Shown: positions 1,655 through 62,260 of the stretch, one piece after another | Numbering within the stretch: the stretch's first letter is position 1 | How the letters are laid out: each line of letters begins with the position of its first letter | Position numbers and translations under genes: made by a program | The notes under the pieces: model-generated | The model's input: the letters and a program-made list of their open reading frames with translations, nothing else | Told to the model about the DNA's origin: nothing | The model's database searches: none | NCBI RefSeq assembly: GCF_007164725.1 | Contig: NZ_AP019697.1 | Span: forward strand, 2,132,501-2,196,500 | Direction of reading: 5' to 3' | Origin: Dialister hominis | GTDB lineage: Bacteria > Bacillota > Negativicutes > Veillonellales > Dialisteraceae | Length of the DNA stretch: 64,000 nucleotides

Positions 1655-1900
1655 CAGGACTTCTCCTTCCGGAGCAAGGTCAACACCCTTAAACCAGCCT
1701 TCGGCTGAAAAAACATGCCAACCAAGGCTAACGCCTTGAGGAAATGCAACTCATCCGTCAGCTCCGCTGACACCTTCCCTTCCAGGGCAAGGTCAAAGGC
1801 GCACCATGGCTTTTAGCAGCTTCGCTCGCGGAGCTGCATCTTTGCCCCCACGCAAAAGCTCCCGGCCGTAGCCGGGAGCGATCCGAAAGGGTCTTTGGGT
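1655..1900. repeat. Hairpin-mosaic intergenic repeat, block 1
   Basis: A series of small palindromes joined by constant phrases. CTTCTCC..GGAGCAAGGTC, CAACACCCTTAAACC, CAGCCTTCGGCTG, AAGGCTAACGCCTT, GAAATGCAACTCATCCG, CAGCTCCGCTG and ACCTTCCC..GGGCAAGGT follow one another. It ends with CTCCCGGC..GCCGGGAG. No coding potential is visible. Confidence 0.75.
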
Positions 1901-2340
1901 TCCGCGTGTATTATGAAAAACAATGCAAGAACAAATCAACGCAACTCATCGTTTCATTATTTTATCCAAAGGAGGTATTACGGTAATTGACTACCTTCGC
2001 GGGACTTCTTTCGGACTCTTTCGTTACATATATTATACCATTTTCCGATATTAAATATAATAGGCAATTTATCCTTTATTTTCCAAGTTTAGCTTCTATG
2101 TTTATTTTCTTTCTTTAGCAATGAAAAAGGCTCCTGGTCATGAGGAGGCGCATGGTTCAAATATTATAATGTGCCGAAGCACTGCTCGAACGCCTGCGCC
2201 TCCGCATAGCCGGGAGCTTTGCGGATTTCTTGTATATACTATATACCATTTGGTGAAAAATGCAATATTTCTTTTCTTATTTTCCCTCTGAGCCTCTCTT
2301 TTTCTGTTCCTTTCTTATTGTATAATAGAGGAAATATGCT
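1901..2340. other. Intergenic, AT-rich, no gene seen
   Basis: Mostly AT-rich DNA. AAAGGAGGTATTA near 1969 looks like a ribosome-binding site, but no convincing ORF follows. A second CCGGGAGC copy lies near 2209. TATAAT near 2320 is a likely -10 box for the next gene, with no clear -35. Confidence 0.5.
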
Positions 2341-2358
2341 AAGTAAGGAGGGGGCTCT

Positions 2359-3639
2359 ATGCAGGATGATAAGGTCGTGGAAGGCAAGGTGCGTCTGGCG
2401 CGTATTCTTGGGGAACGGATGGAGAAGGCTTTTTATCCGGCTGCGCGGCGTTCTTTCACGTCGGAGACGGATGTGGGGACGGCTTTTTATGCCTGGGCGA
2501 AGGCGCATGAGCTCTCTTTTGCTGAGAATCGTCATGTGCTGAATGATGTGATCCGGAAGTATGTGTGCTTCCGTCTGCAGCTGGCTTCGAAGATGGCGCG
2601 TGATTTGTCTGCGGAGAGCCATTTCCTGTCTTCTGCTTTTGAGGGGCATCTGGATTTCGATACGACGCGTTCTCTGATGTCGGAGTTCGATGCGGCGGAG
2701 AAGGCGGCTTCTCTTTTCAAGGGTCCGGATTTCTTTACGAAGTCTGCTGTCCTTGAAATGCTGTCGCTGATGACGGCGGAGGTGAAGGAGTCGCTGCTTC
2801 CGGCTGCGGATTTCTTTGCGCCGGAGACGGAGGGTTTCGTGCATGAGGCGCGCCGGATCCTGGATCTTTATATCGAGTCGTTGTCTTTCTGTGATCCGGA
2901 CTTCAGGGGTCGTGAGGGAAAGCTTCCTCTGCTGCTTTTAAAGGCCATAGGAACGGATCTTGGTCTGTCCCAGGGAAATCGTATCATGGAGAGCGCGAAA
3001 ACGATGGTGCCGCTTGATGAGATGTTTTCGAAGATGCAAAAAACGGAGGAAGGCCTGCCGGATACGAGGTTCATTTACCGGTACATGCTTTTCCGTGCGT
3101 ATGTCCCTGCTTTCTTTGCTTCGTATCTGTGGCAGAGGCGCGACATGAGGGATTCGATTGCCGAGGGCATCCTCCAGTCCCCTTCTGTGGCGCGCTGGGT
3201 CAGGAGAAGGGTCGCAGCAGGCGATCTTCTGCCTGAGGATATTCCGGTCCGCCAGAAGATGTACCTGAAGATCCACATGTTCATGCGCCAGTGGGCTTTC
3301 TTCAATCCGAAGAACACGCGCGCCTACTACCGCTACTTCCCGGATTTTGCGATGCGTATCGCCGACAAAGCCTCCGGCGACGCCTTCCCCGCAGCTGCCA
3401 TGAAACTGATGAGGGAGCTTGGCAAGACAAGGGAAGGAAACAAGCGTCCTTTCTCCAAGGAAATGGAGAACTTTCTCATCGAGGAAACGAGGGACTACGT
3501 CATCCAGACGGCCCACACCATCTACTTCACCTACGGCCTCTCCTTCAGGAAACCCGACGACTTCGTCGTGTCCACATTGAAAGAACTGCCGATCAAGCAT
3601 CCCTTCCTCGCAGGGATCAAGAAGATATTCGGACTGTGA
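2359..3639 (+). CDS. Conserved-looking hypothetical protein, 426 aa
   Basis: I do not recognise this protein. It is a soluble, mostly helical sequence without signal peptide or evident membrane segments, rich in charged residues and aromatic YYRYF-like patches near residue 320. The start is supported by TAAGGAGGGGG 9 nt upstream and a TATAAT about 35 nt before the ATG; a strong terminator follows the stop. It stands alone as a single-gene unit on the plus strand, opposite to pyrG and argS. High codon regularity and a clean frame argue that it is a real gene. Confidence 0.8.
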   Translation: MQDDKVVEGKVRLARILGERMEKAFYPAARRSFTSETDVGTAFYAWAKAHELSFAENRHVLNDVIRKYVCFRLQLASKMARDLSAESHFLSSAFEGHLDFDTTRSLMSEFDAAEKAASLFKGPDFFTKSAVLEMLSLMTAEVKESLLPAADFFAPETEGFVHEARRILDLYIESLSFCDPDFRGREGKLPLLLLKAIGTDLGLSQGNRIMESAKTMVPLDEMFSKMQKTEEGLPDTRFIYRYMLFRAYVPAFFASYLWQRRDMRDSIAEGILQSPSVARWVRRRVAAGDLLPEDIPVRQKMYLKIHMFMRQWAFFNPKNTRAYYRYFPDFAMRIADKASGDAFPAAAMKLMRELGKTREGNKRPFSKEMENFLIEETRDYVIQTAHTIYFTYGLSFRKPDDFVVSTLKELPIKHPFLAGIKKIFGL

Positions 3640-3663
3640 GATTTAAAAACAAAAAACAGAGGG

Positions 3664-3692
3664 AAGCCCCGCTCGATGGCGGGGCTTTTTTT
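3664..3692 (+). terminator. Intrinsic terminator
   Basis: Perfect 8-bp stem AGCCCCGC / GCGGGGCT with a six-base loop, followed by a T run, 25 bp after the stop of the preceding gene. Confidence 0.92.
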
Positions 3693-3714
3693 GGTGCGGC
3701 GGACTGAGAGAGGA

Positions 3715-4325
3715 TAAAACCTTACAACCGAGCTGACACTCGAGGGAAATGAACCTTTTTGAAAACCATAAAACCAAGGCTAACGCCTTGAAGAAATGCA
3801 ACTCATCCGCCCCGTACACTAACTTATGAGACATTTGTGTTGCTACCGCTACCGTCAACTGGTATACGGCGCACCTTCTCTTCCAGAGCAAAATCAAGAC
3901 CGGCCTACGGCCCTGAAAATCAAGACTCAGTACATCGCAGTTGATAGTTGTCATTCACGCCAATGCGGAAGGTTTTAACCTGCCCCAGCGGGGAAGGCGC
4001 GGTCAGCCAATCATTTAACTGTTGCTGACGAAAGGGGTGCAGTATTCATTGCTCTTAGAAATATAAAAAGGTTCCGCGAGCGGAGCGAGGTTGGATGGTG
4101 TTTTAAATCGCGCTCCGCCGCGGTTGTACGGTTTCTATATAAGAGCTTATTGATATGAAAGCGTACCTTAGCACTTTTAGCGATGCTGCGGAAGCGAAGG
4201 GAAAACCTTTACAACCGCAGCAATGCTGCGAGAACTACATCTCATTCCCGGTCTCCGACCGGACCTTCTCCTTCGGAGCAAGGTCAACACCCTTAAACCT
4301 CGCTTCGCTCGAGGAACAGCCCCCT
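3715..4325. repeat. Hairpin-mosaic intergenic repeat, block 2 (with long module)
   Basis: Contains the short hairpin cassettes (AAGGCTAACGCCTT, CTTCTC..GAGCAAAATC, CGGCCTACGGCCC, CTCGCTTCGCTCGAG). It also holds a longer module at about 3920-4080 running from CAGTACATCGCAGTT through AAGGTTTTAACCTGCC to GAAAGGGGTGCAGTATTCATT. The same long module recurs near 20.1 and 49.8 kb. No ORF is supported. Confidence 0.75.
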
Positions 4326-4332
4326 CACACGC

Positions 4333-4370
4333 AAAAAGGACATCCCGCGCGGGATGTCCTTTCCTTTTTC
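4333..4370 (-). terminator. Intrinsic terminator of pyrG operon
   Basis: Near-perfect 14-bp inverted repeat AAAGGACATCCCGC / GCGGGATGTCCTTT, flanked by T runs on both sides, 24 bp after the pyrG stop on the minus strand. It may work in both directions. Confidence 0.9.
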
Positions 4371-4393
4371 CTTATTTATCGTTCTATCATTGA

Positions 4394-6061
<1,668 letters not shown>

Positions 6062-9151: not shown

Positions 9152-9224
9152 GCCTCCTATATATTGAAAGTTTTATATATATTATACACGAGGGGGAAAA
9201 GGGAGGGAACTGGGGAAACGAACT

Positions 9225-9350
9225 ACAGCTCGGAGTAATCAACCCTATCCGCCGGCATCAGAATTTGGGGCCGGCACCTTCCCCGTCTGGGAAGGCGAGT
9301 GTTGGCGGCGCTCGGGAAAGTCAGCGCCCAGTACATCCGAGCTTGCGAGT
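9225..9350. repeat. Hairpin-mosaic intergenic repeat, block 3
   Basis: Short version: GTAATCAACCCTATCCGCC, CCGGCATCAGAATTTGGGGCCGG, ACCTTCCCCGTCTGGGAAGGCGAGTGTTGGCGGCGCTCGG (positions 9278-9317). The same phrases recur at 21.5, 33.25, 39.9 and 62.0 kb. Confidence 0.7.
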
Positions 9351-10926: not shown

Positions 10927-10954
10927 CCATTGATTTCTCAAAGTCCTTGTCCGG

Positions 10955-11168
10955 CCCTGTCCTTTTGCCTGAGAGATTGAGGCTTGCGCCTTTTGCACCT
11001 TCGGCTTCCGCATCGTTTCAGCGGAGATCTCCAGAGTTATGTCCGCATACAGTTTCGTGTCCTTTGAACGCCTGATAGTGTTACTCCTTCGGCAGTCTCC
11101 GAAAGGTGTATATTGAATAAGTATACACTTTTCATCCTCGAGCTCTTTCTGTATGCATCATCCATTAC
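10955..11168 (-). promoter_or_regulatory. Tandem glycine riboswitch 1
   Basis: Read on the minus strand, a leader GGATGATGC is followed by aptamer 1 (GCCGAAGGAGTAACACTATC, AGGCG, GGAC). A linker CTCTGGAGA then leads into aptamer 2 (GCCGAAGGTGCAA, CTCTCAGGCAAAAGGACAG). These are the conserved glycine-riboswitch cores. The leader GGATGA may pair with the linker to form the known P0 kink-turn (inference). A terminator follows before the symporter gene. Confidence 0.93.
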
Positions 11169-14469: not shown

Positions 14470-14514
14470 TGTATGTATGCATCCACGCATAGCCGGGAGT
14501 TACCCTGCTGCCAG

Positions 14515-14697
14515 CCCTGTCCTTTTGCCTGAGAGATTCGGGATCAAAGATCCCTTTGCACCTTCGGCGTCCGCATCTTTTCAGCGGAACTCTCCAGAGA
14601 TGTGTCCGTACACAGTTTCGTGTTCTCAGAACGCCTGATAGTGTTACTCCTTCGGCAGACATTTTCATGTCATTTTTCCGTGTACTTCATCCACCCT
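14515..14697 (-). promoter_or_regulatory. Tandem glycine riboswitch 2
   Basis: Minus strand: GGATGAAG leader, GCCGAAGGAGTAACACTATC, AGGCGTTC, GGACAC, CTCTGGAGAG, GCCGAAGGTGCAA and CTCTCAGGCAAAAGGACAGG in order. The order is the same as riboswitch 1, with different peripheral stems. A 75-nt extra leader carries a GTACGGGAACCCGTAC palindrome. Confidence 0.93.
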
Positions 14698-15119: not shown

Positions 15120-15535
15120 AGAGGAGAATTAAAACCGGACAACCGAACTTCGTTCGTAGTAATCAACCCTAACCGCCACTTCGTGGCCCTCCTTCCCCGT
15201 CTGGGAAGGTCAACACCACTTACTTGCTTCGCAAAAGGAAAACAAGCAAACCGAACTTCGTTCGAGGAAAACCCTACAACCAGCCTAGCGGCTGAGGAAC
15301 TACATCTCATTCGTCAGCTACGCTGACACCTTCTCTTTTCGGAGCAAGGTTAACACCCTTAAACCAAGGCTACGCCTTGATGAAAAACTCAAAACCTCGC
15401 TACGCTCGATGAAATGCAACTCATCCGTCGGCTCCGCCGCCACCTTCTCCTTTCGGAGCAAGGTTAAAACCGGCCTACGGCCCTGAAAATCCAGACTCAG
15501 TACATCGCAGTTAGCAGCAGCGGCAAGCGGCGCAC
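15120..15535. repeat. Hairpin-mosaic intergenic repeat, block 4
   Basis: A long run of cassettes: CCGAACTTCGTTCGTAG, GTAATCAACCCTAACCGCC, CCTTCCCCGTCTGGGAAGG, CCAGCCTAGCGGCTG, GAACTACATCTCATTCG, CAGCTACGCTG, ACCTTCTC..GAGCAAGGT, AAGGCTACGCCTT, CTCGCTACGCTCGA, CGGCTCCGCCG and CGGCCTACGGCC. The spacers are constant and the palindromes vary. No gene is supported. Confidence 0.78.
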
Positions 15536-17215: not shown

Positions 17216-17261
17216 TGTATGTATGCATCCATGCATAGCGGGAGTTACCCACGTGCCAGCC

Positions 17262-17452
17262 CTGTCCTTTTGCCTGAGAGATTCGGGATTTACGGGTGAA
17301 ATCCCTTTACACCTTCGGCGCCCAATCGAATGGGACTCTCCAGAGTTGTGTCCGTACACAGTTTCGTGTTCTTCTGAACGCCTGATAGTATTACTCCTTC
17401 GGCAGAGTGCCCTTTCAGCTCTCATTTTTCAGTGTACATCATCCACAGATAT
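17262..17452 (-). promoter_or_regulatory. Tandem glycine riboswitch 3
   Basis: Minus strand: GGATGATGTA leader, GCCGAAGGAGTAATACTATC, AGGCGTTC, GGACACAACTCTGGAGAG, GCGCCGAAGGTGTAAAG and CTCTCAGGCAAAAGGACAGG. All core motifs of both aptamers are present. Confidence 0.93.
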
Positions 17453-19210: not shown

Positions 19211-19257
19211 TGTCTATCCTAAAACGAGTACGAAAAAATCGTAAGAACGTTTCTTTA

Positions 19258-19432
19258 TGCTCTGTCCTTTTGCCTGAGAGATTGGGACCTTGCGATCCTT
19301 ACACCTTCGGCGCTCATTTGTGAGACTCTCCAGAGTGTGTCCGCAACCGGTACCGCCTCTTGCGAGGCACCTGAGAGTGTTACTCCTTCGGTAAGCCATA
19401 CGGCTTTCTCCCACTTGCATCATCCACCAATA
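19258..19432 (-). promoter_or_regulatory. Tandem glycine riboswitch 4
   Basis: Minus strand: GGATGATGCA leader, GGGAGA, ACCGAAGGAGTAACACTCTC, AGGTGCC, GCGGACA, CTCTGGAGAG, GCGCCGAAGGTGTAAGG and CTCTCAGGCAAAAGGACAGAG (split at 19258-19278). This copy shows both P1/P3-type halves most clearly. Confidence 0.94.
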
Positions 19433-19759: not shown

Positions 19760-20285
19760 CGGGAAAACTAGGGAGAGAGTTTAAAACCAGACAACCAGCC
19801 TGACGGCTGAGGGAGATGAATCTCCTCAGGCGCAGGCGCGCCAGCTTTCCCTACGGGGCGAGCTCTAAAACCCTTTCCTTACTTCGCAAAGGGAAAACAG
19901 GCAAACCTCGCTTCGCTCGAAAAACCTTTTTATATTGAAAGCATTAAGGAATACTACACTCTTTCCACCGGCCTTCTTAGAAACTGCACCTTTAAAAACC
20001 ATACAACCGGACTCTGTCCGAGTAACTGCAACTCATCCGCCCGACATCAGAATTTGAGGTCGGGCACCTTCCCTTCCAGGGCAAGGTCAAGACCGGCCTA
20101 CGGCCCTGAAAATCGGAACTCAGTACATCGCAGTTAATAATAGCGGTACACGACGATACAGAAGGTTTTGACCTCCACCATCGGGGGAGGATCCGGCCAA
20201 TCTTTTAACTGTTGCCGGAGAAAGGGGTGCAGTATTCATTGGTTTTTATAAAAGGTTCCACAAGCGCAGCTTGGTTGTATGGTTT
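19760..20285. repeat. Hairpin-mosaic intergenic repeat, block 5 (with long module)
   Basis: Cassettes CCAGCCTGACGGCTG, AGCTTTCCCTACGGGGCGAGCT, CTCGCTTCGCTCGA, CCGGACTCTGTCCG, CCGACATCAGAATTTGAGGTCGG and ACCTTCCC..GGGCAAGGT. The long module CAGTACATCGCAGTT ... AGAAAGGGGTGCAGTATTCATTGG follows at 20110-20250. No gene is supported. Confidence 0.75.
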
Positions 20286-20433
20286 TTCCATTCATACGTT
20301 TTTCCCATTTGTGTGGTTTTCTTATTCATACGGTTTCCCCTGTCCTATGCTCCCCAATTGTCTACCTATTTTCCCCTCTCTCGTTCTCTTTATGGTAATA
20401 TATTGACAGGAATCGAAACGTGGAGTAATGTAT

Positions 20434-21374: not shown

Positions 21375-21640
21375 AGAGAGTGAAAACCATACAACCGCCT
21401 TACAGGCTGGGAAATGATGTTTCCGGTCCCTCCGGGACCACCTTCCTCTACGAGGCAAGGTCAAGTTCAAAACCATACAACCGCGCGCACTCGTGGTAAT
21501 CAACTCTATCCGCCCTTCGGGCACCTTCCCCGTCTGGGAAGGCAAGTGTTAGCGGCGCTTGGGAAAATGAACCCCTTTCCCCTGACGGTGACAGCTTTAC
21601 GATAATCGAGAAAAGTCAGGACTCAGTACATAGTAGTTCG
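21375..21640. repeat. Hairpin-mosaic intergenic repeat, block 6
   Basis: AAAACCATACAACCGCC, GGTCCCTCCGGGACC, ACCTTCCTCTACGAGGCAAGGT, GTAATCAACTCTATCCGCC, GCCCTTCGGGC and CCTTCCCCGTCTGGGAAGGC. The hairpin arms again differ from other blocks while the spacers are kept. Confidence 0.75.
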
Positions 21641-27364: not shown

Positions 27365-27592
27365 TTACTTTTCATTCTCGATGATGCGGCTGGCACGCTC
27401 GAGGTTTTTCTTTTCCTTGTAGGAAACGTAGTCTTCAGAAGACTCTTCCTTTTCACCTTTGGAAGCAGCTGCCTTCTCTTCCATGGCTTCCGCTCTTTCC
27501 AGGTTCTTCTCACTCTTGAAGGCTGTGTACGGACTCTCTTCTTTCATGTCCTCAACGGCTTTCTTATTGACTGTATCAATGATTTTTTCCAT
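27365..27592 (-). CDS. Small two-repeat protein of the KxLERA family (SP4), 75 aa
   Basis: Starts MEKIIDTVNKKAVEDMK, nearly the same as the tandem copies, then carries two degenerate cores (YTAFKSEKNLERAEAM and YVSYKEKKNLERASRI). It is acidic in the middle, with no signal peptide. It lies 30 bp after the third tandem copy and is probably in the same transcript. Confidence 0.78.
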   Translation of the reverse strand: MEKIIDTVNKKAVEDMKEESPYTAFKSEKNLERAEAMEEKAAASKGEKEESSEDYVSYKEKKNLERASRIIENEK

Positions 27593-27622
27593 GATTCCTG
27601 CTTCCTTTCTGCCGGTATTTTC

Positions 27623-27790
27623 TTAGACAGCGGCTTTGATTTTCTTAGCTTCCGGTTTTCTGAGGCCGCTGATGGTTTCTACGTAATCGGCTTTTTCCAG
27701 TTTCCTGGCTGCCATGTAGCCGAAGTAGAAGTTATCCTTCTTCAATGCTTTGACTGCTTCCTTGTTTTCACGATCAATGATTTTTTCCAT
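27623..27790 (-). CDS. Small protein of the KLERA family (SP3), 55 aa
   Basis: Third tandem copy. The core FYFGYMAARKLEKADYVETI is followed by SGLRKPEAKK, and the last five residues (IKAAV) differ from copies 1 and 2 (VRIAI). AAAGGGAGTCTATAAA precedes the ATG. Helical, basic, with no export signal. Confidence 0.78.
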   Translation of the reverse strand: MEKIIDRENKEAVKALKKDNFYFGYMAARKLEKADYVETISGLRKPEAKKIKAAV

Positions 27791-27820
27791 TTTATAGACT
27801 CCCTTTCTGACTTGATTTCC

Positions 27821-27988
27821 TTAAATAGCGATTCTGACTTTCTTGGCTTCCGGTTTTCTGAGGCCGCTGATGGTTTCTACGTAATCGGCTCTTTCCAGTT
27901 TCCTGGCTGCCATGTAGCCGAAGTAGAAGTTATCCTTCTTCAATGCTTTGACTGCTTCCTTGTTTTCACGATCAATGATTTTTTCCAT
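27821..27988 (-). CDS. Small protein of the KLERA family (SP2), 55 aa
   Basis: Second tandem copy, with the core FYFGYMAARKLERADYVETI and end KKVRIAI; the protein is identical to copy 1. AAAGGGAGTCTATAAA lies before the ATG. Confidence 0.8.
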   Translation of the reverse strand: MEKIIDRENKEAVKALKKDNFYFGYMAARKLERADYVETISGLRKPEAKKVRIAI

Positions 27989-28018
27989 TTTATAGACTCC
28001 CTTTCTGACTTGATTTCC

Positions 28019-29850: not shown

Positions 29851-29909
29851 CTATTGGAATATTCCATTAAAGGATACTAACAAATGTATTTATTGGTTCT
29901 ATCTGAAAA

Positions 29910-39879: not shown

Positions 39880-40320
39880 CCATTTCCGAAGAATACTCGC
39901 CTTCCCAGACGGGGAAGGTGCCCGAAGGGCGGATAGGGTTGATTACCACGAGCAAAGCGAGGTCGTATGGTTTTCCATAAGGCAAAGCCTTGGTTTAAGG
40001 GTGTTTGACCTTACCTCGTAGAGGAAGGTACGGCCGGAGGCCGGTAATGAAGTTAATTACCCACGGACGAAGTCCGGCTTTATGGTGTTTCTTCGAACGA
40101 AGTGAGGTTTAAGGGTGTTAACCTTGCTCCGAAAGGAGAAGGTGTCGCCGAAGGCGACGGATGAGATGTAGTTCCTCTCGCGCAGCGAGGTTTTACGGTT
40201 TTCCTCAAGGCCTCAGCCTTGGTTTAAGGGTGTCAGAGCTCGCCCCGTAGGGGGAGCTGGCGCGGATGCGCCTGAGGAGGTTCATTTCTGCGAGCGAAGC
40301 GAGGTTTTATGGTTTTCAGT
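39880..40320. repeat. Hairpin-mosaic intergenic repeat, block 10 (reverse orientation)
   Basis: The same phrases as other blocks but reverse-complemented: CCTTCCCAGACGGGGAAGG, GCCCGAAGGGC, GGATAGGGTTGATTAC, AAGGCAAAGCCTT, GGTTTAAGGGTGTT, ACCTTACCTCGTAGAGGAAGGT-type stem, CCGGAGGCCGG, CCGGACGAAGTCCGG-type stem, ACCTTGCTCC..GGAGAAGGT and AGCTCGCCCCGTAGGGGGAGCT (40247-40268). Confidence 0.78.
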
Positions 40321-40371: not shown

Positions 40372-40420
40372 AAAAAAGGCTGTGAAGAAATGATTGCACA
40401 TTTCGTCACAGCCTTTTATT
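40372..40420. terminator. GGCTGTGAnnAAATG hairpin, terminator of symporter gene
   Basis: AAAAAAGGCTGTGAAGAAATG / CATTTCGTCACAGCCTTTTA; near-perfect 17-bp stem with a short loop, 26 bp after the minus-strand symporter stop. Related to the IS1182 right end. Confidence 0.85.
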
Positions 40421-42734: not shown

Positions 42735-42905
42735 TTGGGAAGAAGGGCCGTAGGCCGATCTTAACCTTGCCCTGGAAGGGAAGGTGTCTCATATACCAGT
42801 TGTCGGTAATGGTAATGCTATAAATGGCGCATAAATTAGTGTATGAGACGGATGAGTTGCATTTCCACGGACGAAGTCCGGTTGTGCGGTTTTGTGAGTA
42901 ACGCT
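42735..42905. repeat. Hairpin-mosaic intergenic repeat, block 11 (reverse orientation)
   Basis: GGGCCGTAGGCC, ACCTTGCCCTGGAAGGGAAGGT (42764-42785), TAGTGTATGAGACGGATGAG, GCATTTCCACGGACGAAGTCCG. The phrase ATACCAGTTG..GGTAATG and TTAGTGTATGAGAC match block 2 in reverse (ACTAACTTATGAGACA, GTCAACTGGTAT). Confidence 0.72.
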
Positions 42906-47453: not shown

Positions 47454-47465
47454 AAAAAGAAAATC

Positions 47466-47515
47466 AAGGAGCTATGACAAAATGTACAACCATCTCGTCA
47501 CAGCTCCTTTTTTTT
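47466..47515. terminator. GAGCTnTGACAAAATG hairpin after DciA-like gene
   Basis: AAGGAGCTATGACAAAATG ... CATCTCGTCACAGCTCCTTTTTTTT; 12 bp after the stop. Same hairpin family as at 29801 and 40372. Confidence 0.85.
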
Positions 47516-47569: not shown

Positions 47570-47700
47570 GAAAACCTCAAAACCTCGCTTTGCTCGAGAA
47601 CTACTGTATTCCCTGGCTTCGCCAGGACCTTCTCCTTCGGAGCAAGGTTAACACCCTTAAACCTCGCTTCGCTCGAGAAAAGGAAGAAGCAACGTTTTAA
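47570..47700. repeat. Hairpin-mosaic intergenic repeat, block 12
   Basis: CTCGCTTTGCTCGAG, CCTGGCTTCGCCAGG, ACCTTCTCCTTCGGAGCAAGGT (47626-47647), TAACACCCTTAAACC, CTCGCTTCGCTCGAG. Compared with block 8, the second hairpin changed from CCGG..CCGG to CTGG..CCAG, a paired change. Confidence 0.78.
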
Positions 47701-47836: not shown

Positions 47837-49647
47837 GGGGCTGTGACAAAATGGTTAATCATTTTGTTGCAGCCTCTTTTTTGCGTCTTTATTTCATCAT
47901 TTTTAGCTCTGCTGTAAGCCTTTTACGTAAAAATGCGCGTAAGCCCCCTTACCCCCATAAGACTTTTAATTATATTGTCTTAGGCGGCAATCCTTATACG
48001 CATTATTTTTGTGATGTATTTCCTTAAATTATAGCCAAGTGCTACCAGGTATAACTCGGCTTTTACAGAATCTATCCCTTTTCTGACGATTCTTTTGTAC
48101 CATCTGTCATGTTTCATGATTCCAAAAGTTCCTTCAGCCTGGATTGACCGGTTCATTCTTAGCAGGGCTCCATGGATGCTTTCCAGATTATCCTGAACCT
48201 CCTGGTACATGTTATTCCGTTCTCTGCTCAATGAGATTCTTTTGTTCTTCGGGGTCTTTTTACATTGCTCTGCCAGCGGGCATCCTTGGCAGTCTTCGCA
48301 TTCAAATACTTCCTCCTGCCTGCCGTATAAGTTCCCTCTGACCAGATGTCTATAGATAAATTTGAAAGCCCTGTCATTTGGACAACGGATGGTTCCATTC
48401 TCATCAACTCTAAAGTTTATTGGCCGAAACGGATTGGTATGGTATTTCTTGTCTTTCGTTTCTTTCTTGTACATGGGGAATTTCATATACTTTTCCATAC
48501 CGTGCTGCTCGCAATAGATGTAATTGTTGAAAGATCCATATCCTGCATCTGCCACAGGATACTTAGGATAAGCCCCATAGACTTCGTGGAATTCCTCCAT
48601 CAGCGGTACGAAGCAATCCATATCTGAACGATACTGGTTAACATCAATTACGGCAATAAATTCATCGGCAACACCTATTTGGACATTGTATGCAGGCAGA
48701 AGCTGATCATTTCCCATGTAGTCCGACTTGATTCGCATGAATGTTGCATCCGTATCGGTCTTCGAATAACTGTTTCTGGAAGTACCGCATATCTGTATCT
48801 TCTCAACATATTCTTCAAGTTTTGATGTATATGCCTTAAGCTGCTCATACTTGCGTTGATGATCGGACTTGCGATGCCCGCTTCCATGAACAAAGGCCGT
48901 CTCATCAATCTGCCAGATTTCTTTTAATTTATCCAATACCAGACGCAGATAGTCCGGAGCGTATTCTGTATTGATGTTTACACTCATATGGTCATACTTA
49001 AGATCATCATTGAGTAACTCAAAAAGGCTGGTAATCTTGGCAAAAAGCTTGTAGCGGGATTTTTCAGCGGATTTCTTCCATACCCAGCTGTATTTATTTG
49101 CGTTCGCTTCAAACTTGGAACCGTCAATATATATATGCTGCAAATCCACGTTGAGTTTGCCGCAGAGTTCTTTCGTAATTGAATAAAAGATATCCTTGAG
49201 AGAATACTTAAGAAAGCCCTTCACGAAATGACAGAATGTCCGATAGGATGGGGCTTCATAATTCATCAGGTACATATATCTGATATTAACCCTGCAATTA
49301 TCTTCAAGTTTTCTAAAAGAGCAATATCCTTCTTCTGCGAAACCATAGATGATCGTTTTCAGCATGTTGACGGGATTATACCTGGGTCTGCCAGCGCCAC
49401 GCGTCGGTATGTAACGAAGGTACTTTTTAAGATCGATTTCCTCCATAAATCTGTCATACATTAAAACAGGATCATCGACATTGAGAATCTCAGAGGGAAA
49501 CATTGGCAAAATGCCTTGTTCTGCGGTAAAATGATTGCTAGTGTTGTTATTTTTCATTGTAAAAAATTATAACACGAAAGGCTCTGCCCCGGACCAAATG
49601 ATCCGGGGCAGAGCCCTTTTTGTTGGGATGAATTTTGTCACATCCCC
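47837..49647 (-). mobile_element. IS1182-family element, copy 2 (1811 bp, inverted)
   Basis: Same ends and length as copy 1, opposite orientation. The flanks are CGGCAAAA on one side and TTTTGCCG on the other, so the element sits in the middle of a palindrome. It lies between parS 5 and the recF terminator. Confidence 0.93.
47980..49557 (-). CDS. IS1182-family DDE transposase, copy 2
   Basis: 525 residues, identical in protein to copy 3 and with one residue different from copy 1 (Leu in KSRYKLFAK). The frame is intact and the DDE residues are kept. The same leaderless arrangement is seen (TATAAT 8 nt from the ATG). Confidence 0.95.
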   Translation of the reverse strand: MKNNNTSNHFTAEQGILPMFPSEILNVDDPVLMYDRFMEEIDLKKYLRYIPTRGAGRPRYNPVNMLKTIIYGFAEEGYCSFRKLEDNCRVNIRYMYLMNYEAPSYRTFCHFVKGFLKYSLKDIFYSITKELCGKLNVDLQHIYIDGSKFEANANKYSWVWKKSAEKSRYKLFAKITSLFELLNDDLKYDHMSVNINTEYAPDYLRLVLDKLKEIWQIDETAFVHGSGHRKSDHQRKYEQLKAYTSKLEEYVEKIQICGTSRNSYSKTDTDATFMRIKSDYMGNDQLLPAYNVQIGVADEFIAVIDVNQYRSDMDCFVPLMEEFHEVYGAYPKYPVADAGYGSFNNYIYCEQHGMEKYMKFPMYKKETKDKKYHTNPFRPINFRVDENGTIRCPNDRAFKFIYRHLVRGNLYGRQEEVFECEDCQGCPLAEQCKKTPKNKRISLSRERNNMYQEVQDNLESIHGALLRMNRSIQAEGTFGIMKHDRWYKRIVRKGIDSVKAELYLVALGYNLRKYITKIMRIRIAA

Positions 49648-49649: not shown

Positions 49650-50045
49650 TTGCCGAGCCTGCGAGGCGAAAGGGGTTCATTTAATCCTTCTATCTCAGCA
49701 GCCTTGATTTGAAGGAAGAAAAGCAAAACCCGTACAACCTCGCTCTGCTCGAAGAACCTTTTTGTATTTTAAAACTCAATGAATACTGCACCCCTTTCCT
49801 GGCAACAGTTAAAAGATTGGCCGGTACTCCTTCCCCGCTGGGGCAGGTCAAAGTCCTCCGCTTCGTTACTGATGGATAATATCGAATGAGCGTTTTACAG
49901 TTTTCATTTATAATATCGGAACTCGTCGGTACGAAAGGTTTTAACCTGCCCGTCGGGGTGGATCCAGACTATCCTTGATACTGACGCTGGTGAAAGGGGT
50001 GAAGTTCCACGCGGTTTTATCGCGGTTTTCTGGTGTCGTCAGCGT
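49650..50045. repeat. Hairpin-mosaic intergenic repeat, block 13 (with long module, both orientations)
   Basis: Long module in reverse (AATGAATACTGCACCCCTTTC, CAACAGTTAAAAGATTGGCC, CCTTCCCCGCTGGGGCAGG) at about 49770-49850. A diverged forward copy follows (AAAGGTTTTAACCTGCCCG, GAAAGGGGTGAAGTTCC) at 49935-50010. Head-to-head copies of the module occur only here. No gene is supported. Confidence 0.68.
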
Positions 50046-52770: not shown

Positions 52771-54411
52771 TTACCTTTTCAGCTGCTTGGTAAGTTCATC
52801 GATGACGGCCTTCGTGCTCTGATCGCGTTTGATTTCCTTTTCCACGCGTTCGCAGGCATAGACGACTGTCGTGTGATCCTTTCTTTTGAACTTGTCACGG
52901 AGTGCCGGGAAAGAAATGCCCGGGATCAGGTTTCTGGCCAGGTACATGGAAATCTGTCTTGGAACGACATATTTTTTCGGACGCGCATTGCTGAGGACCT
53001 GTTCCTTCGTCACGCCGTAGCGGTCGCAGACTTTGTCGATGATGATATCGACCGTCAGCGTATTGCCGCCGTCGAGCGGGATCTTGTCTTTCAGTGCTTC
53101 CATGGCAAAAGGCAGTGTGATCGGCTTCTCTTTGATGCGGGCTATCATGACCAGGCTGTTGAAAGCGCCTTCCAGCTCACGGACATTCGTATTGATGTGG
53201 CTTGCAATGTAATCGACGACTTCATCCGGCAGATTGATACCCTGCTTTTCAGCGCGGTTCTTCAGGATGATGCTGCAGATTTCATAGTCAGGCGGGGAAA
53301 TCGGAGCGACAAGGCCGCTCGAGAAACGGCTCTGCAGGCGGTCTTCGAGCTTTTCAATATCCGATGGCGTACGGTCGCTCGTCATGATGATGTTCTTCTT
53401 CTTGTCGAAGAGCTCATTGAACGTGTTGAAGATTTCCATCTTCGTCGAGTCCCTCGAGCCGAAGAACTGGACATCGTCGATCAGAAGGAAGTCCGGATTT
53501 CTGTACTTCTGGCGGAAGTCATTCGTCGCATGGCGCTGGATGGCATCGATCAGCTCATTCGTGAACGTTTCACTGGACACGAAAAGAACGGAAAGCTCCG
53601 GCTTGTATTCATGGATGTAATTGCAGATCGCATGCAGAAGATGCGTCTTGCCAAGGCCGGATGGGCCGTAAATGAAGAGCGGATTCATATTTGTATCCGT
53701 CAGCTTTGGATTGACCGCAGCCTGTGCGACGGCCAGGGCCGCCGAATACGCTACGTCATTGCACCCGCCGTGGACGAATGTCTCGAACGTGTACTCCTCA
53801 TTGATGGGATTTGACTGGAAAACCTTCGCTTTTTTCGCTTCCGGCTTCTTCGGTTCTTCGAAAAGGGAGCCCTGAGCGACATCCTGGATGCTCGGAAGAG
53901 CGACCTCGTCGGCCGACTTCGGCTTCAGATTTGTGAAATCCGGAGGCGCTGCTTCTTCCGGGAACGGATCGGCTGCCTTGCTTTCCATCACGGGAGCAGG
54001 CTCATTCCCTTCCGGAAATGGCGAAGGGATGCCCCCTTCGGGGAACGGTGCCGGAGAAGGAGCAGGCGGGACAACATTGCGGGCCTTTTCCCTTTCCATA
54101 TCCTTGGCAGAAGCATGGGCGGAAACGGGACCCGGGCCGTCATTCGGCGTTATTTTTGGAGGACGGTAGTTATCTACTTGTATTGTGATCTGCTGATTCT
54201 TCGTTTTAAGAATGTAACTCTCCAGTTTTCTGGAATACACATTGGCCAGCCATGCGACCTGGTACTTCGGCAGTGTGTGGTCCGTGGAAATTGTCAGTAC
54301 CGAGCCTGAAAGTGAGACAGGGTACAAGTGGAGTTCAAACATTTCTGAATACTCGGAATCATTCGACTTAATATAAGTAACTAAATCCTCCCAGAGTGAA
54401 AATAGATCCAT
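52771..54411 (-). CDS. dnaA: Chromosomal replication initiator DnaA
   Basis: A 546-residue initiator, longer than the usual 450. Domain I is residues 1-85. Domain II (85-200) is unusually long, with three PFPEG/PFPEE repeats and many Pro and Ala. The AAA+ domain has Walker A GPSGLGKTHLLH at 249 and Walker B FLLIDDVQFF. Domain IV has the DNA-binding signature RKDHTTVVYACERVEKE. It forms the oriC-bound filament. Upstream spacer DNA also carries DnaA boxes, so autoregulation is likely. Confidence 0.98.
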   Translation of the reverse strand: MDLFSLWEDLVTYIKSNDSEYSEMFELHLYPVSLSGSVLTISTDHTLPKYQVAWLANVYSRKLESYILKTKNQQITIQVDNYRPPKITPNDGPGPVSAHASAKDMEREKARNVVPPAPSPAPFPEGGIPSPFPEGNEPAPVMESKAADPFPEEAAPPDFTNLKPKSADEVALPSIQDVAQGSLFEEPKKPEAKKAKVFQSNPINEEYTFETFVHGGCNDVAYSAALAVAQAAVNPKLTDTNMNPLFIYGPSGLGKTHLLHAICNYIHEYKPELSVLFVSSETFTNELIDAIQRHATNDFRQKYRNPDFLLIDDVQFFGSRDSTKMEIFNTFNELFDKKKNIIMTSDRTPSDIEKLEDRLQSRFSSGLVAPISPPDYEICSIILKNRAEKQGINLPDEVVDYIASHINTNVRELEGAFNSLVMIARIKEKPITLPFAMEALKDKIPLDGGNTLTVDIIIDKVCDRYGVTKEQVLSNARPKKYVVPRQISMYLARNLIPGISFPALRDKFKRKDHTTVVYACERVEKEIKRDQSTKAVIDELTKQLKR

Positions 54412-54725
54412 ATAAAAACCTCATATGTTGACAGCTGTGATTAACCTTGTGAAAAAAATGTGAATTCTGGTGAATAAATCAAGAAATAAAAGTCCGATCA
54501 ATTCGATATTATCAAAGGAAAATGCACTTGAACAACTCTGTGCAAAAGTGATTAACCTTGTGAATAACTTTATTCTATCATCTATCGTCTCCCTTGTACA
54601 TTCACAAGATATAGAGAAAAAAGAATATGACAGTACCATAAATTGTGCCTCCTAAGGCGAACATTTAGTCGCAAAAGTCCGAAAAATCCCGCTGCTGCAA
54701 GCGATTTCCCTACTTATTAAGGTAT
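54412..54725. other. Upstream part of oriC / dnaA leader
   Basis: DnaA-box-like TTATTCACA (minus strand, 54559-54567), TTATTCACC (54470) and others. A 17-bp direct repeat GTGATTAACCTTGTGAA occurs at 54437-54453 and 54548-54564. AT-rich stretches between could be the unwinding element. No rpmH or rnpA is seen upstream. Confidence 0.7.
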
Positions 54726-54729
54726 AAAT

Positions 54730-54758
54730 TTACAAAGCAGTAAGAAAGCTGTTATACT
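54730..54758 (+). promoter_or_regulatory. Promoter for 76-aa gene and exonuclease-RNase H
   Basis: TTACAA, 17 nt, TATACT on the plus strand, 69 bp before the first gene. Confidence 0.6.
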
Positions 54759-54826
54759 GGCAGTGAATGCCTCCCCTCCGAGTCACAAACTGCTGCGGGA
54801 GATAAGTCAGCGAAAGGAAAGAAGTC

Positions 54827-55057
54827 ATGAAACGTCCACAGAAAGTCACCCGGGAAGACAGGCTGAGCCAGTACGCCCGCAAGATGTACGAAAAAGAAAA
54901 AATCGGGAAACAATGGGAAGAAGAACTCCCGGAAGACAAGAAAAAGAACGGAAAGAAAATCAGGACCATCCTGAACCGCCGCCTCCGTCATGACAAAAAC
55001 CTTGAAGTACCCGCTAACGGCGGCGCTTACAGGAAGGAAGCGGAGTGGAGAGAATAA
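54827..55057 (+). CDS. Small basic hypothetical protein, 76 aa
   Basis: Not recognised. It is very rich in Lys, Arg and Glu (RLSQYARKMYEKEKIGKQWE, KKKNGKKIRTILNRRLRHD), predicted helical, with no signal. CGAAAGGAAAGAAGTC before the ATG is an acceptable ribosome-binding site. It lies 22 bp before the exonuclease-RNase H gene in the same unit. A small nucleic-acid-binding protein is possible; it is not ribosomal protein L34. Confidence 0.65.
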   Translation: MKRPQKVTREDRLSQYARKMYEKEKIGKQWEEELPEDKKKNGKKIRTILNRRLRHDKNLEVPANGGAYRKEAEWRE

Positions 55058-56499: not shown

Positions 56500-58310
56500 G
56501 GGGATGTGACAAAATTCATCCCAACAAAAAGGGCTCTGCCCCGGATCATTTGGTCCGGGGCAGAGCCTTTCGTGTTATAATTTTTTACAATGAAAAATAA
56601 CAACACTAGCAATCATTTTACCGCAGAACAAGGCATTTTGCCAATGTTTCCCTCTGAGATTCTCAATGTCGATGATCCTGTTTTAATGTATGACAGATTT
56701 ATGGAGGAAATCGATCTTAAAAAGTACCTTCGTTACATACCGACGCGTGGCGCTGGCAGACCCAGGTATAATCCCGTCAACATGCTGAAAACGATCATCT
56801 ATGGTTTCGCAGAAGAAGGATATTGCTCTTTTAGAAAACTTGAAGATAATTGCAGGGTTAATATCAGATATATGTACCTGATGAATTATGAAGCCCCATC
56901 CTATCGGACATTCTGTCATTTCGTGAAGGGCTTTCTTAAGTATTCTCTCAAGGATATCTTTTATTCAATTACGAAAGAACTCTGCGGCAAACTCAACGTG
57001 GATTTGCAGCATATATATATTGACGGTTCCAAGTTTGAAGCGAACGCAAATAAATACAGCTGGGTATGGAAGAAATCCGCTGAAAAATCCCGCTACAAGC
57101 TTTTTGCCAAGATTACCAGCCTTTTTGAGTTACTCAATGATGATCTTAAGTATGACCATATGAGTGTAAACATCAATACAGAATACGCTCCGGACTATCT
57201 GCGTCTGGTATTGGATAAATTAAAAGAAATCTGGCAGATTGATGAGACGGCCTTTGTTCATGGAAGCGGGCATCGCAAGTCCGATCATCAACGCAAGTAT
57301 GAGCAGCTTAAGGCATATACATCAAAACTTGAAGAATATGTTGAGAAGATACAGATATGCGGTACTTCCAGAAACAGTTATTCGAAGACCGATACGGATG
57401 CAACATTCATGCGAATCAAGTCGGACTACATGGGAAATGATCAGCTTCTGCCTGCATACAATGTCCAAATAGGTGTTGCCGATGAATTTATTGCCGTAAT
57501 TGATGTTAACCAGTATCGTTCAGATATGGATTGCTTCGTACCGCTGATGGAGGAATTCCACGAAGTCTATGGGGCTTATCCTAAGTATCCTGTGGCAGAT
57601 GCAGGATATGGATCTTTCAACAATTACATCTATTGCGAGCAGCACGGTATGGAAAAGTATATGAAATTCCCCATGTACAAGAAAGAAACGAAAGACAAGA
57701 AATACCATACCAATCCGTTTCGGCCAATAAACTTTAGAGTTGATGAGAATGGAACCATCCGTTGTCCAAATGACAGGGCTTTCAAATTTATCTATAGACA
57801 TCTGGTCAGAGGGAACTTATACGGCAGGCAGGAGGAAGTATTTGAATGCGAAGACTGCCAAGGATGCCCGCTGGCAGAGCAATGTAAAAAGACCCCGAAG
57901 AACAAAAGAATCTCATTGAGCAGAGAACGGAATAACATGTACCAGGAGGTTCAGGATAATCTGGAAAGCATCCATGGAGCCCTGCTAAGAATGAACCGGT
58001 CAATCCAGGCTGAAGGAACTTTTGGAATCATGAAACATGACAGATGGTACAAAAGAATCGTCAGAAAAGGGATAGATTCTGTAAAAGCCGAGTTATACCT
58101 GGTAGCACTTGGCTATAATTTAAGGAAATACATCACAAAAATAATGCGTATAAGGATTGCCGCCTAAGACAATATAATTAAAAGTCTTATGGGGGTAAGG
58201 GGGCTTACGCGCATTTTTACGTAAAAGGCTTACAGCAGAGCTAAAAATGATGAAATAAAGACGCAAAAAAGAGGCTGCAACAAAATGATTAACCATTTTG
58301 TCACAGCCCC
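56500..58310 (+). mobile_element. IS1182-family element, copy 3 (1811 bp)
   Basis: Same ends and length as copies 1 and 2. The flanks are AAAAAAATTT on the left and TTTTTTGATG on the right. It lies 58 bp after the exonuclease-RNase H stop and marks the start of an AT-rich patch. In opposite orientation to copy 2, with oriC between. Confidence 0.93.
56590..58167 (+). CDS. IS1182-family DDE transposase, copy 3
   Basis: 525 residues, the same protein as copy 2; intact DDE residues and zinc cluster. TGTTATAAT (extended -10) ends 8 nt before the ATG, with the terminator-like hairpin just upstream in place of a -35. Confidence 0.95.
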   Translation: MKNNNTSNHFTAEQGILPMFPSEILNVDDPVLMYDRFMEEIDLKKYLRYIPTRGAGRPRYNPVNMLKTIIYGFAEEGYCSFRKLEDNCRVNIRYMYLMNYEAPSYRTFCHFVKGFLKYSLKDIFYSITKELCGKLNVDLQHIYIDGSKFEANANKYSWVWKKSAEKSRYKLFAKITSLFELLNDDLKYDHMSVNINTEYAPDYLRLVLDKLKEIWQIDETAFVHGSGHRKSDHQRKYEQLKAYTSKLEEYVEKIQICGTSRNSYSKTDTDATFMRIKSDYMGNDQLLPAYNVQIGVADEFIAVIDVNQYRSDMDCFVPLMEEFHEVYGAYPKYPVADAGYGSFNNYIYCEQHGMEKYMKFPMYKKETKDKKYHTNPFRPINFRVDENGTIRCPNDRAFKFIYRHLVRGNLYGRQEEVFECEDCQGCPLAEQCKKTPKNKRISLSRERNNMYQEVQDNLESIHGALLRMNRSIQAEGTFGIMKHDRWYKRIVRKGIDSVKAELYLVALGYNLRKYITKIMRIRIAA

Positions 58311-61454: not shown

Positions 61455-61506
61455 AAGTCTGACCTCCCCTTTCTATAAAAAATGGAATAGTACTATATGG
61501 CATTAT

Positions 61507-61538
61507 CTTTCTATATCTATTATAGTCTTTATAGAAAG
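61507..61538. promoter_or_regulatory. Inverted repeat over FAD oxidoreductase promoter
   Basis: CTTTCTATA and TATAGAAAG arms separated by 14 bp. TTGACC lies just upstream and AT-rich -10 candidates lie inside the repeat, so a repressor or activator site is likely. The regulator is unknown. Confidence 0.5.
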
Positions 61539-61640
61539 GTCAATCCATGGACATAAGATAGAAATTGTCCTATTTCTTGCTTTTCAGCATACATGTTTTT
61601 TATGGAATGCAGGAAAAAGAAAAATCCTTTTTTGCGCACG

Positions 61641-61668
61641 AAAAAAGACAGCGGAATCCGCTGTCTTC
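61641..61668 (-). terminator. Intrinsic terminator of tRNA pair
   Basis: AAGACAGCGG AATC CGCTGTCTT with a T run on the minus strand, right after tRNA-Arg. Confidence 0.9.
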
Positions 61669-61673
61669 ATTGC

Positions 61674-61750
61674 TGGTGACCCAAGAGAGATTCGAACTCC
61701 CGACACCTTGATTCGTAGTCAAGTGCTCTATCCAGCTGAGCTATTGGGCC
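61674..61750 (-). tRNA. tRNA-Arg(ACG)
   Basis: 77 nt on the minus strand. Acceptor GGCCCAA / TTGGGTC, D-arm AGCTCAGCTGGATAGAGC, anticodon stem CTTGA / TCAAG with loop CTACGAA (anticodon ACG), T-arm GGGAGTTCGAATCTC and encoded CCA. A34 is expected to be edited to inosine. Confidence 0.97.
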
Positions 61751-61754
61751 AAAT

Positions 61755-61830
61755 TGGCAGGGGCAGAGGGACTCAAACCCCCAACCTACGGTTTTGGAGA
61801 CCGTTGCTCTATCAATTGCGCTATGCCCCT
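61755..61830 (-). tRNA. tRNA-Trp(CCA)
   Basis: 76 nt on the minus strand. Acceptor AGGGGCA / TGCCCCT, anticodon stem ACGGT / ACCGT with loop CTCCAAA (anticodon CCA), T-arm GGGGGTTTGAGTCCC and encoded CCA. It is 4 nt upstream of tRNA-Arg and shares its transcript. Confidence 0.97.
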
Positions 61831-61859
61831 GTGTCTCAGGTTTTCTCAACCATATGACT

Positions 61860-62005
61860 TAAATATAATAACAAACGGAAAGCAAAAATGCAAGGGGGTG
61901 TAAAATTATTTTTACAAAATTGCTCCAAGGCGCAGGAGAAGGGAGGAAATCCGCACATGACCGCCCCTCGGCGATTTTTTCCTTAATATTTGTTATAATA
62001 TAGGA
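61860..62005. other. Intergenic upstream of tRNA pair
   Basis: AT-rich DNA that should hold the tRNA promoter on the minus strand. TATTATATTTAAG near 61860 is a -10 candidate (TATAAT-like). No gene. Confidence 0.4.
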
Positions 62006-62009
62006 AATT

Positions 62010-62260
62010 TCTTTGACTCGCCTTCCCAGACGGGGAAGGTGCCTATATAAGTTCAAAACAAAACCATTGATTTTTCATTTCTCATCGCAAGCTGCCCCCA
62101 ACGGAGGGAAGTGCCCGAAGGGCGAAAGGGGTGCAGTTTCTAAAAAGGGGCGGATAGGGTTGATTTCTCCAAGGCTGTGCCCTGATTGTATGGTTTTCAA
62201 AAGGTGCAGTTTCTAAGAATAGGCTTGATTTCCCAGAGCTGTGCCTTGGTTATATATTTT
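62010..62260. repeat. Hairpin-mosaic intergenic repeat, block 14 (reverse orientation)
   Basis: CGCCTTCCCAGACGGGGAAGG, TGCCTATATAAGTTCAAAAC (also at 33.25 kb, reversed), GCCCGAAGGGC, GAAAGGGGTGCAGTTTCTA, GGATAGGGTTGATTTC. The stretch CTATATAAGTTCAAAACAAAACCATTGATTTTT.. of 62043-62085 matches 33200-33260 on the other strand. Confidence 0.72.

Follow-up and report, generated by a model that had tools for sequence, protein, structure and literature searches.

Which process fills the gaps between genes of Dialister hominis with mosaics of short hairpins? The question is raised by a 64-kb stretch of its genome (the window; contig NZ_AP019697.1, positions 2,132,501-2,196,500), in which a sequence-only reading had noticed intergenic blocks built from constant phrases and variable palindromes. 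The genome consists of a single contig of 2.41 Mb. We analyzed the structure of these blocks, searched for them in related and distant bacteria and examined the genes next to them. We conclude with high confidence that the repeats are genuine, that they are structured and that they are linked to genes of the DUF559 family (PF04480). The mosaic is best read as a set of non-autonomous copies, some nested and some in tandem, of a mobile hairpin element that uses a Vsr-like nuclease and resembles the REPINs, which are paired repetitive extragenic palindromic (REP) sequences.

Structure and covariation of the repeat unit

The repeat unit is modular. In its own orientation it starts with linker A (AAAACCnTAAAACC), followed by hairpin H1, a linker or spacer S and two hairpins, H2 and H3, which directly abut each other. 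Spacer S occurs as GAAATGCAACTCATCCG, GAACTACATCTCATTC, GAAATGAACCTCCTCAG or GTAATCAACCCTATCCG. The arms of H3 are ACCTTC...AAGGT or AGCTCC...GAGCT, frequently with a single bulged base. Many units carry an extra linker and H1 after H3, and tandem units are frequently spaced by 113-116 nt. In some units (window 3.8 and 42.8 kb) H2 is swapped for a longer stem-loop between unchanged neighbours. The four constant phrases of the sequence-only reading match 22, 7, 7 and 9 times in the window, compared to means of 0.61, 0.03, 0.19 and 0.21 in dinucleotide-preserving shuffles, and none of 100 shuffles attained the observed number for any of them. Their recurrence was thus borne out and the given phrases stand as linkers; the list was incomplete, as GAACTACATCTCATTC, GAAATGAACCTCCTCAG and self-complementary variants are used too.

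For the analysis of covariation, 16 hand-picked units, all from the window, were aligned. Pairing is seen in 89.9% of the cells (71.9% after shuffling). Cells changed on both sides number 47 compared to 13.3 in shuffled alignments, a value attained by none of 500 shuffles, and at most 13 remain when the partner column is slid. Such changes are present at 13 of the 17 pairs, and the covariation score drops from 0.495 to at most 0.137 with slid partners. The arms of the palindromes therefore covary, as had been proposed.

A model of these 16 units (R1, E ≤ 0.01) was applied to an 864-kb sample of the genome consisting of the window and 40 other stretches. It detected 108 units, 26 of them in the window; this latter count is circular because all seeds come from the window, while the 82 units in the other stretches are independent. 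Genome-wide there are at least 150 units (150 of 1267 candidates were scored and all matched). As described before, the units lie on both strands and the number of modules differs between blocks, according to motif layout and R1 matches. Coding DNA is avoided, with 4 of the 108 units overlapping our own gene calls by more than 20 nt; these calls are crude and hexamer-based, so that all counts of gene context are approximate. The presence of blocks in "nearly every long gap" was too strong a claim, since 12 of the 31 gaps of 150 nt or more contain units, as do 11 of the 19 that reach 300 nt.

The blocks had not been assigned to a catalogued family, and this agrees with our results. Rfam covariance models gave no gathering-level match over the window blocks or over the repeats in 18 of 120 cross-phylum loci, and the sub-threshold matches at window 40.37-40.45 kb belong to unrelated families. 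The repeats are covarying hairpins with constant linkers and not the near-identical direct repeats with unique spacers of clustered regularly interspaced short palindromic repeats (CRISPR).

Occurrence in the order, the class and other phyla

Within the order, R1 matches were found in 6 of 61 genomes, namely the own genome, three of five genus mates and two genomes of another family. Up to 76 candidates per genome were scored in the order and up to 25 in the class, so all such counts are floors. The copy number differs strongly among the five genus mates, with no match in two and at least 66 in another by a model tuned to D. hominis. Inspection by eye shows that genus mates retain the grammar with different hairpin letters.

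A scan of named genomes with CMGTCAGCTNCGCTGACASCTYCCC, a common variant of the core, gave at least 120 loci, 80 of them named, among the matches listed. In this set the core of S, H2 and H3 occurs in Oscillospiraceae, Lachnospiraceae and Butyrivibrio (Clostridia), in one Selenomonadaceae genome, in Bifidobacterium and in many Alphaproteobacteria. There the core often forms one half of a head-to-head pair (H3'-H2'-S'-loop-S-H2-H3), an arrangement which, like the associated nuclease described below, was not part of the sequence-only reading. Neighbours less than 100 nt apart in the 120 loci are head-to-head in 29 cases, tail-to-tail in 12 and tandem in 6. The end of S and the start of H3 are coupled: among 95 distinct halves, 73 combine CAG with AGCT and 20 combine CCG with ACCT, the remaining two are of neither kind, and mixed combinations are absent though the search pattern permitted them. 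H2 stems mostly have 5 bp and most commonly start with TC, and H3 comes next.

A second model (R2) was built from ten halves, none of which comes from the own genome and two of which come from a genus mate. In the 864-kb sample it detected 42 units, 12 of them in the window (E ≤ 0.001), and 41 of the 42 lie at R1 positions. Since R2 holds no own-genome sequence, its matches show that the S-H2-H3 core of the window belongs to the cross-phylum family. The window elements differ from this family in three respects: they carry extra A/H1 modules, they have grown in tandem and H3 lies inside the full element. The register given here for the unit is therefore provisional in this genus.

Association with DUF559 genes

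At locus L154, only one gene lies in the loop of a pair, and it encodes a DUF559 protein (E 9e-29). In the order, PF04480 matches 12 of 61 genomes at E 0.001; in 7 of these the match is strong (E < 1e-16), and the seven comprise all six genomes with R1 repeats. In the class, 37 of 250 genomes carry both DUF559 and R2 repeats, 37 only the repeat, 13 only DUF559 and 163 neither (Fisher p 2e-13). The two scans covered 250 genomes each, taken as the same set because their handles agree, and two genomes (G008, G278) were removed from the DUF559 set since their sole match lies in a protein of more than 1500 aa. DUF559 is present in 17 of the 19 class genomes with at least 20 R2 matches.

Genomes chosen for their repeats carry DUF559 in 45 of 50 cases and Y1_Tnp, the transposase domain considered below, in 26 of 50; the control genomes, which include Caulobacter vibrioides as a DUF559 carrier, do so in 2 and 5 of 14. 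The 50 genomes are the author's pick among named rows. L154 was known beforehand to hold DUF559 (44 of 49 without it), and one of the 45 carriers (G106) has a weak match in a frame of 1691 aa.

The link is also a physical one. Of 27 DUF559 domains, 21 have a half no more than 150 nt away and 16 have halves on both sides within 300 nt. The same detector in the same genomes gave 1 of 24 and 0 of 24 for the gene of ribosomal protein S2 (RpsB), and Y1_Tnp loci gave 1 of 21 and 0 of 21. For a second DUF559 set drawn from the class, which shares one locus with the first, the values are 11 of 22 and 4 of 22. The strict form of the detector overlooked H3 arms containing a single mismatch; it was relaxed after its result had been seen, and for the controls only relaxed scoring was used. 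Scored were 28 of 30 DUF559 and 21 of 30 Y1 loci, and in the comparison with RpsB 27 of 30 DUF559, 22 of 26 second-set and 24 of 30 RpsB loci; the others were cut by contig ends or had another domain length.

The R2 model gives a similar picture, with 96 matches around 55 distinct DUF559 loci (176 kb) compared to 12 around 60 control loci (189 kb). These 12 fall in 7 loci, all of RpsB. The count of 55 omits L341, which is the same locus as L284 and is still contained in the 22 of the second set, and the order loci L231, L233, L234 and L235, three of which had been inspected beforehand; before this omission there were 118 matches. An R2 half lies within 150 nt of 30 of 48 full-length DUF559 loci (21 of 27 cross-phylum, 9 of 21 class), and at 14 of the 48 the gene is flanked by an outward half on either side. 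Of the nearest left halves, 18 of 26 are on the minus strand, and of the nearest right halves, 20 of 26 are on the plus strand. The 120 pattern loci contain seven head-to-head pairs with a spacing of 300-800 nt, four of which enclose a DUF559 frame; each of the five DUF559 frames in these loci is found no more than 150 nt from the pattern. The halves beside DUF559 covary as well: 103 distinct half-elements, counting identical rows once and including L231, L233-L235 and L341, have 230 both-side changed cells compared to 62.7 in shuffles and at most 15 when slid. This alignment was fitted to the model, so its paired percentage leans towards the model.

Duplicated DUF559 elements

A 1.3-Mb genome (G163) with eight DUF559 matches contains two copies of a 553-nt element (L346) which are 99.6% alike and 2.4 kb apart. 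Both run from H3 to H3 through DUF559, their likeness stops at the hairpins and the flanks differ on both sides. With a simple tandem duplication, shared flanks would be expected. Further pairs in this genome also have differing flanks with less sharp ends (L344/L345, 95.9%; L348/L349, 87.8%). Outer GTTCC...GGAAC arms are found beside some of the halves at L343-L349, which makes these loci a good model for the boundaries of the element.

The DUF559 protein and the genes of D. hominis

The AlphaFold2 model of the L154 protein has a mean predicted local distance difference test (pLDDT) score of 87.9. A Foldseek search with this model found 3hrl and the catalytic domain of the homing endonuclease I-Bth0305I (3r3p; E 1.1e-4, template modelling score 0.77 by target length) as the closest structures and, more weakly, Vsr (1vsr). 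By sequence search, 3hrl is the sole solved relative at E 0.01. The model thus predicts that the DUF559 product has a Vsr/homing-endonuclease fold. I-Bth0305I, a Vsr-like homing endonuclease of the EDxHD class, shares this catalytic-domain fold; in contrast to such homing endonucleases, DUF559 is a short stand-alone gene bounded by hairpin halves. All nine aligned DUF559 proteins retain the motifs R..E..LW and DFYC. Genes 49-53% alike to that of L154 are also present in phage records from human faeces (MT835756.1, MT835749.1), and judged by these sequences phages are a possible route for the spread of DUF559.

The genome of D. hominis contains two DUF559 genes of domain length (contig C1, 240730-241038 and 247696-248007), in addition to one weak partial match. 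Both genes are located in the origin half of the chromosome and have a repeat unit downstream. The first is intact in the motif E-x-D-G-x-x-H, and this one apparently intact copy may serve the repeats of the window.

Distribution along the chromosome

The repeats are not evenly distributed. In the origin half, 61 of 203 gaps of at least 150 nt hold units, compared to 0 of 86 in the terminus half as sampled by 16 stretches (0.42-1.34 Mb), where R2 has no match either. Lack of room was ruled out as the cause of this scarcity, because these 86 gaps are available there and none holds a unit. Among the 150 units listed genome-wide, four fall in 0.42-1.34 Mb. Within the origin half, units occur in 28 of 45 convergent gaps and in 33 of 158 other gaps. 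The strand of the units leans by replication arm, with 51 plus and 34 minus on the left arm and 19 plus and 46 minus on the right. In genome G013 the listed repeat matches look spread along the chromosome when inspected by eye.

The dnaA gene lies on the minus strand of the window (52771-54411 and 54412-54989) and the replication origin is probably located in an adjoining gap; units are dense in the dnaA-side half of the chromosome and nearly absent in the sampled opposite half. Five exact copies of TGTTTCACGTGAAACA are present in the window (21740, 29408, 38779, 47727 and 47767), several of them near hairpin blocks. We take this sequence to be the ParB-binding parS site, which would fit the nearness to the origin.

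Proposed mechanism and alternative explanations

The presumed autonomous form of the element consists of two S-H2-H3 halves facing outward around a single DUF559 gene. Its hairpins would fold when the element is single-stranded or extruded, and the DUF559 nuclease would read the structure and not the letters, so that the arms could diverge provided that a change on one side is matched on the other. The nuclease may then nick or break the DNA at the element or at a target. Repair would copy the element into this site, which would often lie within or next to an existing copy, and nested and tandem arrays could result. Short copies lacking the gene would spread by means of nuclease supplied from elsewhere, in the way proposed for REPINs and their transposase, the REP-associated tyrosine transposase (RAYT). 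Among the three candidates named by the sequence-only reading, a mobile hairpin cassette is favoured because the core is tied to DUF559 across phyla and DUF559 copies are duplicated together with their hairpin ends; nothing found requires a structured RNA or a nucleoid or polarity element. We consider it a little more likely than not that DUF559 moves the hairpin elements, and somewhat less likely that it mobilised the copies of the window itself.

Several observations weigh against this explanation. By eye, no clear target-site duplication is visible at the flanks of the copied elements or of the full elements of D. hominis, and our sequence comparisons revealed no transposition, cleavage or empty site. 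Some duplicated copies are clustered, as in G209 and G266, are neighbours (G286, 91.6%) or abut partial copies (G254, 89.5%), so local tandem growth also occurs. The DUF559 genes of D. hominis have a unit on one side only, none lies between two outward halves, and the second gene lacks the D-G of E-x-D-G-x-x-H. The full elements in this genome have H3 inside and an extra linker/H1 arm at the ends, the reverse of the order in DUF559-bearing elements elsewhere. The near-absence of repeats in the terminus half is not predicted by a mobile element. In the class, 13 DUF559 genomes have no R2 match (by eye, some DUF559 genomes of this kind show the same layout in other letters, for example at L329 and L339), and the link is looser in the class-drawn loci, with an R2 half within 150 nt at 9 of 21 and outward halves on both sides at three. 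Together with the loops without DUF559, these loci weaken the link a little and lowered our confidence in mobilisation by DUF559 very slightly.

Other such observations would be explained if DUF559 were a passenger, captured in the loops for another benefit such as methylation-linked mismatch repair, with the halves spread by another enzyme or by recombination. No R2 half is present in the retrieved flanks of 15 of the 48 DUF559 loci, and 10 of 34 class genomes with at least 10 R2 matches have no DUF559. Among nine head-to-head pairs 0.3-2.5 kb apart, five lack DUF559 (L113, L158, L201 and the longer L142 and L146); four of these, all but L113, hold ordinary genes. One DUF559 gene (L391, 498-893) is placed among the genes for transhydrogenase subunits, where the gaps could not accommodate halves; it is found on a Sphingomonas parapaucimobilis plasmid (NZ_CP155755.1) and looks as if inserted into the operon. 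In addition, the Caulobacter DUF559 protein VsrA was tied to an SOS/repair setting (PMC12907096). However, the same gene stands in the loop in Clostridia, Bifidobacterium and Alphaproteobacteria, while the other loops, which were not surveyed systematically, share no one gene. We regard a passenger role as unlikely, though it deserves more weight than the other alternatives. Direct selection of the structure, with the blocks kept as 3'-end terminators, stabilising mRNA ends or nucleoid or polarity sites, would account for the covariation, the enrichment in convergent gaps and the orientation by replication arm. Insertions are also least harmful in convergent gaps, however, the copy number varies greatly within the genus (by the species-tuned model), and no Rfam family matches; we judge this explanation improbable.

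Two kinds of transposase were considered as well. If the blocks were miniature inverted-repeat transposable elements (MITEs) of an ordinary DDE insertion sequence, linker AAAACCATACAACC would be the terminal repeat. Linker pairs face inward in 15 cases and outward in 2 (overlapping pairs counted), with a shortest span per end of 227 to 341 nt, and DDE and IS110 transposases are present in the window. No transposase bounded by this linker was noticed, although no dedicated survey was made, no target duplication is evident, and the arms vary freely, unlike a sequence-specific terminal repeat. A MITE origin is about as improbable as direct selection of the structure, or marginally more so. The blocks could also be REPs or REPINs moved by a RAYT transposase of the Y1 HUH type which was lost or acts in trans. 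The high copy number, the intergenic location, the paired inverted palindromes and the enrichment in convergent gaps resemble this system, and Y1_Tnp is present in half of the repeat-chosen genomes (26 of 50). This origin was rejected, because PF01797 has no match in the genome of D. hominis and Y1 loci rarely have halves beside them (1 of 21 within 150 nt, none on both sides); its probability is very low.

Hairpin blocks and other features of the window

The blocks of the window are given below with strand and supporting model matches (strand "none" for elements with inverted ends).

1655-1796, plus: truncated H3, linker, H1, linker, H1, S, H2, H3 (R1 1714-1796; R2 1750-1792)
3716-4135, none: block with nested inverted ends (R1 3766-3897 plus, 3975-4098 minus)
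4207-4317, plus: unit of S, H2 and H3, then linker and H1 (R1 4207-4287)
9210-9299, plus: unit with long H2 hairpin (R1; R2 9244-9295)
15131-15480, plus: three-unit block (R1 15135-15213, 15272-15353, 15387-15467; R2 15306-15349, 15420-15463)
19783-19925, plus: unit of AGCTCC-like subtype (R1 19787-19868; R2 19822-19863)
19995-20286, none: full-length element of 292 nt with inverted ends AAAACCATACAACC...GGTTGTATGGTTTT (R1 19999-20090 plus, 20168-20282 minus)
21383-21546, plus: two-unit block (R1 21387-21464, 21473-21546; R2 21505-21542)
29441-29751, none: full-length degenerate element of 311 nt with inverted ends (R1 29445-29555; inverted ends)
29906-30018, plus: unit with linker and H1 (R1 29910-29988)
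32801-33182, plus: three R1 units and more linker/H1 modules (R1 32918-33000, 33029-33098 (weak), 33101-33181; R2 32953-32995, 33135-33177)
39896-40316, minus: largest array, four tandem units with a period of about 114 nt (R1 39896-39970, 40005-40085, 40118-40198, 40233-40312; R2 at three)
42761-42893, minus: unit with longer stem-loop in place of H2 (R1 42761-42889; sequence)
47571-47681, plus: unit with linker and H1 (R1 47575-47651)
49726-50033, none: weak degenerate inverted pair (R1 49730-49851 plus, E 3e-5; 49941-50033 minus, E 1e-3)
62021-62197, minus: degenerate block of linker, S and one H3, with motif matches and no R1 match

Inverted A linkers bound seven aligned copies of 227 to 341 nt. 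The clearest is that at 19,995-20,286, whose predicted DNA fold is one closed multibranch structure of -57.8 kcal/mol (z -6.3); the largest array has a fold z of -5.0. In the block at 3716-4135, an outer linker pair (3716-3729 and 4122-4135) encloses an inner one (3762-3775 and 4089-4102). The block at 1655-1796 starts 158 nt past an IS110-type transposase gene (207-1496). IS110-type elements are known to insert in palindromic repeats.

Three frames of 525 aa are present in the window (33525-35102, 47980-49557 and 56590-58167), each with a palindrome nearby. The first is a DDE transposase according to Pfam and shares a 99% repeat with the third. Solitary copies of this palindrome lie just upstream of three hairpin blocks (29802-29850, 40372-40420 and 47464-47512). 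Four glycine riboswitches (10947-11044, 14507-14607, 17252-17353 and 19252-19343) are each located upstream of one gene in a row of genes sharing the repeats D1, D3 and D4. A 198-nt tandem repeat at 27489-28184 consists of three copies which are about 80% alike.

Comparison with known systems and significance

REP and REPIN sequences resemble the DUF559 elements as high-copy intergenic palindromes in inverted pairs, enriched in convergent gaps. A small dedicated nuclease gene between two copies is likewise common to both (PMC3733652). The elements differ from the REPIN-RAYT system in the fold of the partner, which is predicted to be of the Vsr/homing-endonuclease and not of the HUH type, in the two abutting hairpins per half and in the lack of a Y1 gene in the own genome. 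According to the same source, CGTC-tagged REPs are palindromic, common in Alphaproteobacteria and arranged as inverted dimers with no known transposase; they have an unpaired CGTC, a single stem of 8-9 bp starting with AT and a CCA tail. Membership in this group was rejected against the definition given there: the elements have two hairpins, H2 is mostly 5 bp long and most commonly starts with TC, H3 follows, and where the letters CGTC occur, the TC is paired in H2. MITEs are similar as short non-autonomous copies with inverted ends, and differ in that no transposase with matching ends was noticed here (no survey was made) and no target duplication is evident.

In the open-licence literature, preprints excluded, the word DUF559 is contained in 14 papers; among the matches listed, none links DUF559 or Vsr to such repeats, and none of six repeat motif strings occurs in any paper of this literature. 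PMC12907096 describes Caulobacter VsrA as a DUF559-domain protein and putative mismatch-repair nuclease; no word beginning with "palindrom" or "transpos" occurs in its main text. We know of no report which connects DUF559 with these repeats.

We tentatively propose, at slightly less than even confidence, a new class of mobile DNA in three phyla or more (Bacillota sensu lato, Actinomycetota and Pseudomonadota): paired hairpins which would be recognised by shape and copied by DUF559 through break repair, with no transposase, sowing short non-autonomous intergenic arrays. DUF559 is a common family listed as of unknown function in Pfam, and the repeats occupy much of the space between genes in numerous bacteria from gut and soil. 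Joining the two gives a bench-testable account for each, as the nuclease obtains a likely substrate and the repeat a likely maker. It is also relevant to a question which PMC3733652 leaves open, namely how palindromic repeats without transposase spread. If the proposal is true, a second, unrelated type of enzyme would have adopted the way of life known from REP and RAYT, the joint change of the hairpin arms would be explained, and their compensatory drift would directly indicate recognition by structure.

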